From the NCBI GenBank assembly GCA_001770415.1, contig MEQX01000055.1, forward strand, positions 21,828 through 85,827: 64,000 nt of DNA, written 5' to 3'. Every line of letters begins with the position of its first letter. The stretch's first letter is position 1. This stretch comes from Betaproteobacteria bacterium RIFCSPLOWO2_02_FULL_63_19. Its GTDB lineage: Bacteria > Pseudomonadota > Gammaproteobacteria > Burkholderiales > SG8-39. The notes below the pieces were generated by a model. The model did no database searches. It was not told the DNA's origin and saw nothing but the letters and a program-made list of their open reading frames with translations. This document shows, piece by piece, positions 1,835-41,624 of the stretch. The position numbers and the translations under genes are program-made.

Positions 1835-2205
1835 CTACTCCCTGGTCAGAGTGATCATGTCTCCAGCGCGAATCGTGCCCAGCAACCGGAAATCGCCCTC
1901 GATGCGACCGAGCAGGTTGCAGTGCGTAGCGTGCGCCGTGCGCACGTTGGGTTGTGCGCCGTGCGCACGTTGGGTTGTGCGCCGTGCGCACGTTGGGTGG
2001 TGCGCCGTGCGCACGCCCGGGTCGTGCGCGAAGCGCACGCTACCCGCTTTGCCCGGACAGGAACGTTGAAATAGACCTCCTCGCCCCAGGTGCAGGCACG
2101 CGATTCGAGGGGCAGGGCTTCAATGACCGCACGCCCGGTCGGCGTGTCCTCGATCGTGGCGTTCAGTTCGCCGCGCTTCCATTTGATCCGTATGCGTGTG
2201 CTCAT
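1835..2205 (-). pseudogene. Cyclophilin-like fold protein (DUF369 type), interrupted by a palindromic repeat array
   Basis: The N-terminal part starts with ATG at 2205 overlapping the recJ stop (ATGA) and encodes RIRIKWKRGELNATIEDTPT and then TWGEEVYFNVPV, the first strands of the small TM1367-like cyclophilin fold. The matching C-terminus, CNLLGRIEGDFRLLGTIRAG followed by DMITLTRE, is encoded in a different frame and ends at 1835. Between them sits the repeat array at 1926-2043, which replaces roughly 40-50 residues of the usual middle and shifts the frame. The gene is therefore almost certainly dead; read-through from the N-terminal frame ends at 1855 with low-complexity sequence coded by the repeat. 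Confidence 0.78.
1926..2043. repeat. Palindromic tandem-repeat element, copy 1
   Basis: A 118-bp element bounded by perfect 11-base inverted ends: GTAGCGTGCGC at 1926-1936 and GCGCACGCTAC at 2033-2043. Inside are three 23-base units GTGCGCCGTGCGCACGTTGG plus GTT or GTG (1931-1953, 1954-1976, 1977-1999), a variant 24-base unit at 2000-2023, and a terminal unit with GCGAAGCGC at 2024-2043. Each unit contains its own GTGCGC..GCGCAC palindrome. A shorter copy with the same ends occurs at 41034-41106. It interrupts the cyclophilin-like gene. Confidence 0.88.
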
Positions 2206-5206: not shown

Positions 5207-6454
5207 ATGCCGGTGAACTACGAACTTCTGATCGGTTTGCGCTACACGCGCGCGAAGCGCCGCAACCATTTCATTTCCTTCATTTCGATGACCTCGATGC
5301 TGGGCATCGGCCTGGGCGTGGCGGCACTGATCGTGGTGCTCTCGGTGATGAACGGTTTCCAGAAGGAGTTGCGCGCGCGCATTCTCGGGGTCGCTTCGCA
5401 CGTGCAGGTGAGCGGCTCCGGCGGGCGGCTGGAAGATTGGCAGCAGGTTGCACGCAAGTCGGCGGCACATCCCCAGGTCGTCGCGGCTGCGCCGTTTGTC
5501 AACGCCCAGGCCATGCTCACTTTCCGTTCCGCCGTGCGTGGCAGCGCCGTGCGCGGGATTCTGCCGGAGTTGGAGGACAAGGTCGCCGCGATCGGCGCGC
5601 ACATGACGGCCGGTCGCCTGCAGGCGCTCGCTCCCGGGGAATTCGGCATCGTTCTGGGCGCGGAGCTGGCGCGCGCGCTTTCGGTTCGCCTCGGCGAGCG
5701 CGTGACGCTGATTGCGCCGCAGGGCCTGGTGACTCCGGCCGGCGTGCTGCCGCGACTGAAGCAGTTCCGGGTGGTGGGCGTATTCGAGGTGGGCATGTTC
5801 GAATACGACGCGGGACTGGCGCTGGTGCATCTCGCCGACGCACAGCGTCTTTTCCAGATGGGAACGGCGGTGTCCGGCGTGCGCCTGAAGCTTGCCGACC
5901 TGTTTGCTGCGCGCGCCGTCGCGCAAGATCTCGCGGCAGCGGTCGGCGGGAGCCTGTACGTCACGGACTGGACGCGCAGCCACGCCAATTTCTTCCGCGC
6001 CGTTCAGATCGAAAAGAACGTGATGTTCATCATCCTGCTGCTGATTGTCGCAGTGGCCGCATTCAATATCGTCTCCACGCTGGTGATGATGGTGACCGAC
6101 AAGCGGCCCGACATCGCGATCCTGCGCACGCTGGGCGCCACGCCGGGCTCGATCATGAAGATTTTCGTGATCCAGGGCGTGCTGATCGGCGTGATCGGAA
6201 CACTGATAGGCGTGGTGGGCGGGGTGCTGCTGGCGCTCAATATCGAAACCGTAGTGCCGTTTCTGGAACGCCTGTTCAACATCCAGTTTCTCTCGCGGGA
6301 GGTCTACTACATCAGCGAATTGCCGTCGGACCTGCAGCGCGGTGACGTGCTGACGATCGCGGCGGTGTCGCTCGTGCTGTCGCTGGTGGCAACGCTTTAT
6401 CCGAGCTGGCGCGCGTCGCGCGTTCAGCCCGTCGAGGCGCTGCGCTATGAGTGA
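5207..6454 (+). CDS. lolC: Lipoprotein-releasing ABC transporter permease (LolC/LolE/LolF type)
   Basis: A 415-residue inner-membrane permease that helps extract outer-membrane lipoproteins and pass them to LolA. It has the family layout: a first membrane helix (MLGIGLGVAALIVVLSVMNG, about residues 30-50), a large periplasmic MacB-like domain, and three C-terminal helices of the FtsX core (FIILLLIVAVAAFNIV; GVLIGVIGTLIGVVGG; LTIAAVSLVLSLVATL). The ending PVEALRYE is typical. Only one permease gene accompanies lolD, which suggests a homodimeric LolF-like arrangement instead of the LolC-LolE pair of enterobacteria; a second gene elsewhere cannot be excluded. Confidence 0.92.
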   Translation: MPVNYELLIGLRYTRAKRRNHFISFISMTSMLGIGLGVAALIVVLSVMNGFQKELRARILGVASHVQVSGSGGRLEDWQQVARKSAAHPQVVAAAPFVNAQAMLTFRSAVRGSAVRGILPELEDKVAAIGAHMTAGRLQALAPGEFGIVLGAELARALSVRLGERVTLIAPQGLVTPAGVLPRLKQFRVVGVFEVGMFEYDAGLALVHLADAQRLFQMGTAVSGVRLKLADLFAARAVAQDLAAAVGGSLYVTDWTRSHANFFRAVQIEKNVMFIILLLIVAVAAFNIVSTLVMMVTDKRPDIAILRTLGATPGSIMKIFVIQGVLIGVIGTLIGVVGGVLLALNIETVVPFLERLFNIQFLSREVYYISELPSDLQRGDVLTIAAVSLVLSLVATLYPSWRASRVQPVEALRYE

Positions 6455-6529
6455 CCGCATGGTTGATCGAGGACACACTGTTGCGATCCCGTTTAGCTCG
6501 ACCCGCGATGTCATGGGTCACGGAATTCG

Positions 6530-7225
6530 ATGACGGACCCTGTCGTTTCCTGCCGCGGACTTGCGAAGGCCTATTACCAGGGCAAGGTCGCGCTTCCGGT
6601 CCTGCTCGGGGTCGAACTCGACGTGGCGGCCGGCGAACTGGTCGCGATCGTCGGCGCATCCGGTTCGGGCAAGAGCACACTGCTGCATCTGCTGGGCGGA
6701 CTGGACGAGCCGAGTGCGGGCGAAGTAACCGTACTCGGGCGTTCCATCCACCGGATCGACGAGGCCGAACGCAGCCGGCTGCGCAATGAATCGCTCGGCT
6801 TCATCTACCAGTTCCACCATCTGCTGGCGGAATTCACGGCGCTGGAGAACGTGGCGATGCCGCTGCTCGTGCGGCGCATGGCGCCGGCACGGGCGCGCGA
6901 TGCCGCCGCGGCAATCCTCGCCGAGGTCGGGCTGGGGGCGAGGCTCGACCACGTGCCGGGGGAACTCTCCGGCGGCGAACGCCAGCGCGCGGCGCTCGCA
7001 CGGGCACTGGTGAGCTCGCCGGCCTGCGTGCTTGCCGACGAACCTACCGGCAATCTGGACCGCCACAACGCAGAGGCGGTTTTGGAACTGATGCTCGAGT
7101 TGAACCGCGGCCGAGGAACCAGCTTCGTGATCGTGACGCACGAGCCCGCTCTCGCCGCGAGAATGAACCGCGTGCTGAGGCTGCGCGACGGTGTACTCGC
7201 GCCGGAGCGGAACACCGCGCCGTAG
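6530..7225 (+). CDS. lolD: Lipoprotein-releasing system ATP-binding protein LolD
   Basis: A 231-residue ABC ATPase that powers the LolC-type permease. Walker A is GASGSGKST (residues 42-50), the signature [15 protein letters not shown], and Walker [12 protein letters not shown] followed by the H-loop VTHE. The MacB/LolD-type Q-loop region [18 protein letters not shown] is present; its FHHLL motif is characteristic of LolD. It follows lolC after 75 bases, so co-transcription is likely, although the gap is longer than most in this window. Confidence 0.94.
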
Positions 7226-39791: not shown

Positions 39792-41030
39792 ATGATCGAA
39801 CTGGCAATCGCAGCCGTCGTAGCGGCACTCGTGATCCTCGCCTGGCTCGCGTGGCGGCTGCTGTCGCTCGAGCGCCGTATCGAGCAAATGCCGGTCGTGC
39901 TTGAGCAGGGCCTGGAGGCGAAACACCGGACCATGCTCATGGATCTGCACGCCGGACTGACGCAGCAGGGAGATCGGGTCGGCAGCCACGTCGCGGAATC
40001 GGGGGAACGGCTGCGCGGCGCAGTGGCCGAGGAACTGCGGCAGACGCGTGACACGCTGCACGCACTGCGCCTGTCGTTGGCGCAGGAACTCGGCCAGAGC
40101 CGGGAAGCGATGGCACAGAAGCTCACCGACTCGACGCAGGCGCTGACTGCGAAGGTCGAGGAAAGACTCGATCAGATCTCTGGCAAGGTGAGTGAACGGC
40201 TCGACGAGGGATTCAAGAAGACCAACGAAACGTTCGTCAGCGTAATGCAGCGGCTGGCAACCATCGACGAGGCGCAGAAGAAGATCGAAAGTCTGACCGG
40301 CAGCGTCGTCAGCCTGCAGGAACTGCTCGGGGACAAGCGCTCGCGCGGTGCGTTCGGGGAGGTCCAACTGGAAGCACTGGTACGCAATGTGTTGCCCACG
40401 TCGGCGTTCGACATGCAGTACACGCTCTCGAATGGCAGCCGCGCAGATTGCGTGATAAGGCTGCCGGATCCGACTGGTATGGTCGCAGTGGACTCGAAAT
40501 TTCCGCTGGAAAACTATCACCGCATGTTCGACCGTGACGCGAGCGAGGCGGACCGGGGAGTAGCGCAGAAGGCCTTCAAGCAGGACATACGGCGTCATGT
40601 CGATGCGATCGCAGGCAAATACATTATTGCCAACGAAACCTCGGACGGAGCGGTGATGTTCGTTCCGGCCGAGGCAGTGTTTGCGGAGATTCACGCCTAT
40701 CACGCCGATGTCGTCGATTACGCGACAGGCAAGCACGTCTGGATCGTTTCTCCGACGACGCTGATGGCGGTACTGAACACGGCGCGCGCCGTTCTGAAGG
40801 ACGTGGAAACGCGCAAACAGGTGCATGTGATCAAGGAGGCGCTGGCGCGCCTGGGCGCGGACTTCAGGCGTTTTGACGAGCGCATGAAAAGGCTCGCCGA
40901 CCACATACGCCAAGCGCATCAGGACGCCGAAGACGTTCAGACCAGCAGCCGCAAGATTACGCAACAGTTTGCCCGGATCGAGGCAGCGGAGATCGATCAG
41001 ACGCCCGAAATCGAGGATAGATCGAGCTAG
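39792..41030 (+). CDS. rmuC: DNA recombination protein RmuC
   Basis: A 412-residue protein. A single N-terminal helix (MIELAIAAVVAALVILAWLA) anchors a long coiled coil (about 50-180, rich in Gln, Glu, Arg), followed by the RmuC domain (about 180-400; SLQELLGDKRSRGAFGEVQL, then VDSKFPLENYHRM and VWIVSPTTLMAVLNTARAV). RmuC limits recombination at inverted repeats in E. coli; its nuclease fold is predicted. The stop TAG at 41028-41030 lies four bases before the palindromic repeat. Confidence 0.92.
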   Translation: MIELAIAAVVAALVILAWLAWRLLSLERRIEQMPVVLEQGLEAKHRTMLMDLHAGLTQQGDRVGSHVAESGERLRGAVAEELRQTRDTLHALRLSLAQELGQSREAMAQKLTDSTQALTAKVEERLDQISGKVSERLDEGFKKTNETFVSVMQRLATIDEAQKKIESLTGSVVSLQELLGDKRSRGAFGEVQLEALVRNVLPTSAFDMQYTLSNGSRADCVIRLPDPTGMVAVDSKFPLENYHRMFDRDASEADRGVAQKAFKQDIRRHVDAIAGKYIIANETSDGAVMFVPAEAVFAEIHAYHADVVDYATGKHVWIVSPTTLMAVLNTARAVLKDVETRKQVHVIKEALARLGADFRRFDERMKRLADHIRQAHQDAEDVQTSSRKITQQFARIEAAEIDQTPEIEDRSS

Positions 41031-41033
41031 CCG

Positions 41034-41106
41034 GTAGCGTGCGCCGTGCGCACGTTGGGATCGTGCGCCGTGCGCACGTTGGGATCGTGCGCGAAGCGCA
41101 CGCTAC
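41034..41106. repeat. Palindromic tandem-repeat element, copy 2
   Basis: A 73-bp element with the same perfect ends as the copy at 1926-2043: GTAGCGTGCGC at the start and GCGCACGCTAC at the end. It holds two 24-base units GTGCGCCGTGCGCACGTTGG plus GATC and the same terminal unit with GCGAAGCGC. It fills the convergent rmuC-apt junction, and the apt stop codon TAG (41103-41105) is part of the element's end. Confidence 0.88.
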
Positions 41107-41624
41107 AAGTACTCGAAGAACGAAAACACGCTCAGGCCCCGCTTCTCGAGCCGCTTGCGGCCGCCAAGCTCGACAATTTCCTGAACGTAGCAGCATTCCA
41201 CCACTTCGGCCCCCGTGTCTTTAACGAGCGTGAGCGCAGCTTCGCTGAGCGCGCCCGTCGCCAGCAAATCATCCACGAATACCACGCGATCGCCCTTCGC
41301 GATCGCATCGGCGCTCATCTGCAGGCGCTCCGAGACCGGCCCGACATCCTGCGCTCGGCTGAGGGTTCCCCCGGGCAGCGCGCCCAGTGAACGGACGGGG
41401 ACGAAACCCGCGCCGAGCCGGTAGGCAAGTGCCGCGCCGATCACGAACCCGCGCCACTCCATGCAGACGAACTTGCGAATGTCAAGTTGCCCATAGCGCA
41501 CGGCGAGCTCGTCGATCAAGGCGTGAAACCCCGCGCCGTCCATCAGCAGCGTGGTCAGGTCGTAGTAGACCGCTCCGCGGCTCGGGTAGTCGGGGATCTT
41601 GCGGATCAGCGAGCGCGTGTCCAT
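41103..41624 (-). CDS. apt: Adenine phosphoribosyltransferase-like protein
   Basis: A 173-residue type I phosphoribosyltransferase that salvages adenine to AMP with PRPP. The start is SLIRKIPDYPSRGAVYYDLT, and the PRPP motif is VVFVDDLLATGAL. It differs from typical Apt at several conserved points: EWRG for EARG, RSLGALP for RKPGKLP, AQDVGPVSE for YDLEYG, and GAL for GGT after the PRPP motif. It may be a divergent member with altered purine preference. The TAG stop comes from the adjoining repeat element, and the protein ends FFEYL. Confidence 0.8.
   Translation of the reverse strand: MDTRSLIRKIPDYPSRGAVYYDLTTLLMDGAGFHALIDELAVRYGQLDIRKFVCMEWRGFVIGAALAYRLGAGFVPVRSLGALPGGTLSRAQDVGPVSERLQMSADAIAKGDRVVFVDDLLATGALSEAALTLVKDTGAEVVECCYVQEIVELGGRKRLEKRGLSVFSFFEYL

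Follow-up and report, generated by a model that had tools for sequence, protein, structure and literature searches.

A small GTAG-type REP family in a betaproteobacterial genome, with a REP pair of variable hairpin number that supplies the stop codon of apt

The 64-kb window (the whole stretch of DNA analysed, 64,000 nucleotides of Betaproteobacteria bacterium RIFCSPLOWO2_02_FULL_63_19) contains a 73-bp element at positions 41034 to 41106, located between the convergent genes rmuC and apt (Table 1). As stated in the original prediction, the element fills this junction: the rmuC stop codon (41028-41030) lies just outside it, and apt, on the minus strand, takes its stop codon (TAG, 41105-41103) from the element's terminal GTAG head.

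Table 1. Features of the rmuC-apt junction, the second window copy, and other genes that end at a REP (positions without a prefix are those of the window)
Feature	Position	Strand	Comment
REP pair, REPIN/BIME-like	41034..41106	.	Heads outward; one extra internal palindrome
REP unit	41034..41054	+	GTAG head, 7-bp stem CGTGCGC, loop CGT
Internal palindrome	41062..41078	.	No GTAG head; loop CGT
Inverted REP unit	41086..41106	-	Head GTAG read on minus; loop GAA on plus, TTC on minus
TAG stop codon of apt	41103..41105	-	Within the GTAG head
apt-type adenine phosphoribosyltransferase gene	41103..41624	-	173 aa
rmuC-family gene	39792..41030	+	Ends 3 bases short of the element; VV[R/K]L tail of relatives missing
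Second window copy	1926..2043	.	Same ends; three internal headless palindromes
Cyclophilin-like gene, 5' part	1926..2205	-	Runs into the 1926 copy, apparently interrupted; PF04126 profile positions about 2-54 of 120
WecA-like gene (PF00953)	L026:452-1504		Ends at TAG of a REP
Epimerase gene (PF01370)	L013:8215-9192		Ends at TAG of a REP
Wzc-like gene (PF02706)	L013:4093-6372		Ends at TAA of a REP headed by GTAA

The element begins with GTAG at 41034, ends with CTAC at 41106, and has the layout GTAG-CGTGCGC-CGT-GCGCACG ... CGTGCGC-GAA-GCGCACG-CTAC, with one further palindrome in between. Its 21-bp ends, GTAGCGTGCGCCGTGCGCACG and the inward-facing partner CGTGCGCGAAGCGCACGCTAC, are identical to those of the copy at 1926-2043. 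Both copies are thus built of two inverted REPs with outward heads that are able to pair, the arrangement known as REPIN or BIME. The 41034 copy contains three palindromes of the form GTGCGC-NNN-GCGCAC (at 41039, 41063, and 41087, with loops CGT, CGT, and GAA), and the 1926 copy contains five (at 1931, 1954, 1977, 2000, and 2024, with four CGT loops followed by GAA). The predicted identity of the ends and of the terminal unit is borne out, and the predicted numbers of full internal units, two and four, hold when the first, GTAG-headed unit is included in the count. The copies were also said to differ only in unit number, which is incorrect, as their linkers differ too: GTTGGGATC appears twice in the 41034 copy (period 24), and GTTGGGTT, GTTGGGTT, GTTGGGTG, and GCCCGGGTC follow each other in the 1926 copy (periods 23, 23, 23, and 24). 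The linker start TTGGG is common to both. With up to one mismatch allowed, the window contains no matches beyond these eight palindromes; in 100 shuffles of the window, the mean count was 1.69 and the maximum 6. Folding of the element is also stronger than in shuffled sequences, with z values for the two strands of -6.2 and -7.3 as DNA and of -4.7 and -7.0 as RNA. A CRISPR-like or structural tandem repeat was considered and rejected, since the units are palindromes with GTAG ends that are found genome-wide.

Comparison with relatives indicates that the apt product is hardly altered. The nearest ortholog (64% identical; G017, L054), which lacks the element, ends in LEKRGLSVFTLWSD and the window protein in LEKRGLSVFSFFEYL; the respective C termini, SVFTLWSD and SVFSFFEYL, differ in length by one residue. 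Homologs at 44 to 50% identity mostly end in CEFEGD or similar, about two residues later, so the apparent change is one to two residues, in a direction that depends on the comparison. The original prediction that insertion had reset the end of this protein is therefore not supported as stated: the element supplies the stop codon, but the nearest element-free ortholog is only one residue shorter. Truncation of apt was rejected as an interpretation, because that ortholog stops earlier, not later. The change appears clearer on the rmuC side: a VV[R/K]L tail is found in 10 of 10 readable orthologs from the same genus or family (L109-L115 and L118-L120; L108 and L116 are cut by contig ends and were left out) and is missing from the window rmuC, whose tailless end region spans 41008-41030. 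The motif is also missing in seven rmuC orthologs from the same order (L117 and L121-L126).

At the other window copy, the 55 residues that precede the element match the N-terminal half of PF04126. Pfam searches give no support for a downstream fragment, and no frame detectably continues the domain. Thus, this cyclophilin-like frame is apparently interrupted by the five-palindrome copy.

The pattern GTAGCGTGCGCNNNGCGCACG, a short palindrome with a 7-bp stem and a 3-nt loop preceded by GTAG, has 29 exact matches in the 4.65-Mb genome, versus none for the reversed-pattern control. With at most one mismatch, there are 34 copies at 16 sites (grouped by eye), so the ends are conserved among further copies, as the original prediction needed them to be. 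The copies are mainly extragenic, many of them lying just past gene ends, and at least two are inside genes; two opposed intact heads are found at only 4 of the 16 sites (again by eye). Fifteen of the 34 copies reside on a single 11.8-kb contig (binomial P of 2e-30, for matches that include REPs in arrays and so are not independent). Among exopolysaccharide-type genes, REPs are arrayed in tandem at periods of about 64 and 46 bp, at 6369-6640 and 9189-9360 of L013 (contig C51) and near 87-368 of L026. The exact REP is present in 2 of the 80 relatives searched, in one copy each, and in none of the three same-genus genomes among those searched; the family thus appears to be largely confined to this genome among the genomes searched. 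A pattern scan of genome contigs for two adjacent palindromes, in a set that possibly did not include the source genome of the window, yielded just two records, both of them two-hairpin pairs whose loops are different, and no named genome with the multi-palindrome form.

Inspection of the flanking open reading frames shows that a REP head supplies the stop codon at 4 of the 16 sites, namely, TAG at apt and two TAG and one TAA at the other three (Table 1). Further genes stop a little ahead of a REP, at a distance of 3 bases for rmuC, 12 for a LeuB-like gene, 18 for a thiolase gene, and 21 for an EamA transporter gene. Two minus-strand genes, one of the MarC family (L041:1416-2138) and one encoding an MFS protein (L046:1493-2773), appear to read through a REP from the other side and to have acquired unusual C-terminal tails, in stretches that both include masked runs of N. 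According to Di Nocera et al. (2013, PMC3733652), GTAG REPs often supply a TAG stop to flanking ORFs and are located, for the most part, no more than 20 bp from 3' ends, with the neighboring genes convergent or unidirectional. What seemed odd, a stop codon lying in the repeat, is inherent in the GTAG head and has been described before.

The contig that is rich in REPs encodes a RAYT (TnpA-REP) on its minus strand (L013:6668-7312), the matching transposase whose presence had been proposed as a check. The protein scores 179.8 bits (cut-off, 80) against the NCBIfam profile NF047646 (REP_Tyr_transpos), and the alignment places its HMH and YIHWNPVKHG motifs at positions matching those of other RAYTs; the HUH motif, the catalytic Tyr, and the RAYT signature are thus recognized from profile score and alignment together. 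As in a REPtron, the gene is surrounded by cognate REPs, at 6606, 7325, and 7363. One more REP is located within the gene, in frame, at L013:6958-6978, between the HUH and tyrosine halves, where the linker is roughly 25 to 30 residues longer than in other RAYTs. Because the REP and the extra residues separate its two halves, this RAYT may be inactive. RAYT matches, at E values up to 1e-15, are found in 9 of the 80 relatives, the best with 60% identity over part of the protein.

Linkers are informative as to how the number of units changes. For 27 linkers at 11 of the 16 sites (the other five are the pair at C51:7325/7363 and four sites that have just one intact palindrome), the mean normalized edit distance is 0.18 within sites and 0.62 between them, and none of 5,000 label shuffles gave a value as low. 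For the short linkers alone, the values are 0.21 and 0.39, reached by 53 of 5,000 shuffles, a moderate result from 10 linkers at four sites. Linkers of one site are thus nearly the same, and those of different sites are not. As the internal palindromes of both window copies also have no GTAG head, the simplest reading is tandem duplication in place, through slippage or unequal recombination, as the most likely way in which unit number changed. The original prediction placed expansion or contraction inside a mobile cassette, which this pattern of homogeneity per site and difference across sites does not support. A multi-hairpin element that moves as one cassette and changes its unit number during transposition, for example, by the rolling-circle mechanism proposed for BIMEs, would account for the exact 21-bp ends and the TTGGG linker start of both window copies, and a rolling-circle model for amplification of BIME modules has been published (PMC2817692). 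It is nevertheless quite unlikely, given that linkers differ between the two copies while being the same or nearly so within each, and that the internal units lack the head on which RAYT cleavage strongly depends in two studied species: Escherichia coli TnpA-REP is reported to need GTAG for cleavage, and mutation of GTAG to severely reduce cleavage in Stenotrophomonas maltophilia (PMC8266576). A more speculative proposal, which we regard as doubtful, is that the element represents a sub-type of REPIN whose two GTAG-headed ends enclose headless palindromes that multiply, yielding a variable hairpin array per RAYT target pair, in a genome whose RAYT took up its own REP in frame, possibly a self-limiting step. 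Literature titles and the beginnings of abstracts contain no matching description of headless internal palindromes or of unit number within REPINs, which is weak evidence of absence.

Taken jointly, the element is best explained (probability of about 0.92) as an inverted pair of GTAG-type REPs, that is, a REPIN or simple BIME, made by RAYT, with a head that supplies the stop codon and palindromes added later by duplication. The pair was most likely produced by the RAYT, a single-strand Tyr/HUH transposase encoded elsewhere in the genome; in studied species, this transposase recognizes the GTAG head plus the hairpin. As the outward heads hold TAG, a copy that settles at the 3' end of a gene would close the frame in one case out of three, and it would be tolerated there since the gene loses little of its coding sequence. 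Later tandem duplication of the 23- to 24-bp hairpin-plus-linker unit, by unequal recombination or replication slippage, is the most likely source of the extra headless palindromes. In the transcripts of the convergent genes rmuC and apt, the element would fold into a single long hairpin that shields their 3' ends or keeps them apart. Counting against this explanation, 34 copies are few for a REP family, two opposed intact heads are found at a minority of sites, the RAYT may be inactive, and the short-linker result is moderate. A hairpin that is strong in both directions at a convergent junction would also be expected of a bidirectional transcription terminator or mRNA-stabilizing structure kept by selection, but a purely regulatory hairpin with no mobile origin is very improbable: the same sequence is found at 16 sites, within the RAYT gene, clustered around it, and interrupting the cyclophilin-like frame, and no T-run follows either end of the element in the sequence inspected. 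The element could instead be a rearrangement joint, at which rmuC was joined to apt and had its tail trimmed, either by recombination of two REP copies or by a deletion that ended at a REP copy. The missing tail fits such an event, as does gene order, since rmuC and apt are adjacent in 0 of 19 other rmuC loci and 0 of 29 other apt loci; yet several of these loci are cut by contig ends, gene order in relatives may be fluid anyway, the rmuC stop is outside the element, and the end of apt has normal length, which makes a joint unlikely. Because no empty rmuC-apt junction was found among these loci and no second strain was found, we can only infer that the REP pair was inserted at 41034. The gain is modest: a small REP family from a lineage that has been little studied is now well resolved, with evidence for hairpin number changing in place and a RAYT that carries its own REP.

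Among known systems, the REPINs of Bertels and Rainey (2011, PMC3116915) similarly consist of two inverted REPs that form one hairpin, with copies clustered beside a RAYT gene. They are far more numerous than the copies in this genome, and their ordered clusters repeat entire REPINs, flanks included, in tandem, whereas here the extra palindromes lie inside the pair. The group 3 REPtron of S. maltophilia (PMC8266576) has a short perfect palindrome of 8 bp, compared with 7 bp here, and shares the 3-nt loop and the GTAG head, a likeness of REP sequence. Also close are the GTAG REP families as presented in the text of Di Nocera et al. (PMC3733652). That text describes spacers with small stem-loops but apparently not headless palindromes between two REPs. 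In other respects, these families resemble the one described here: they have a GTAG head, a 6- to 13-bp stem, and a 2- to 3-nt loop; they form dimers with heads outward, including heterodimers with different loops; and they are found at 3' ends and between convergent genes, provide TAG stops for flanking ORFs, and include intragenic copies and a RAYT nearby. The present family is thus a small, new GTAG REP/REPIN family in a little-studied lineage, of a known kind and with known habits.
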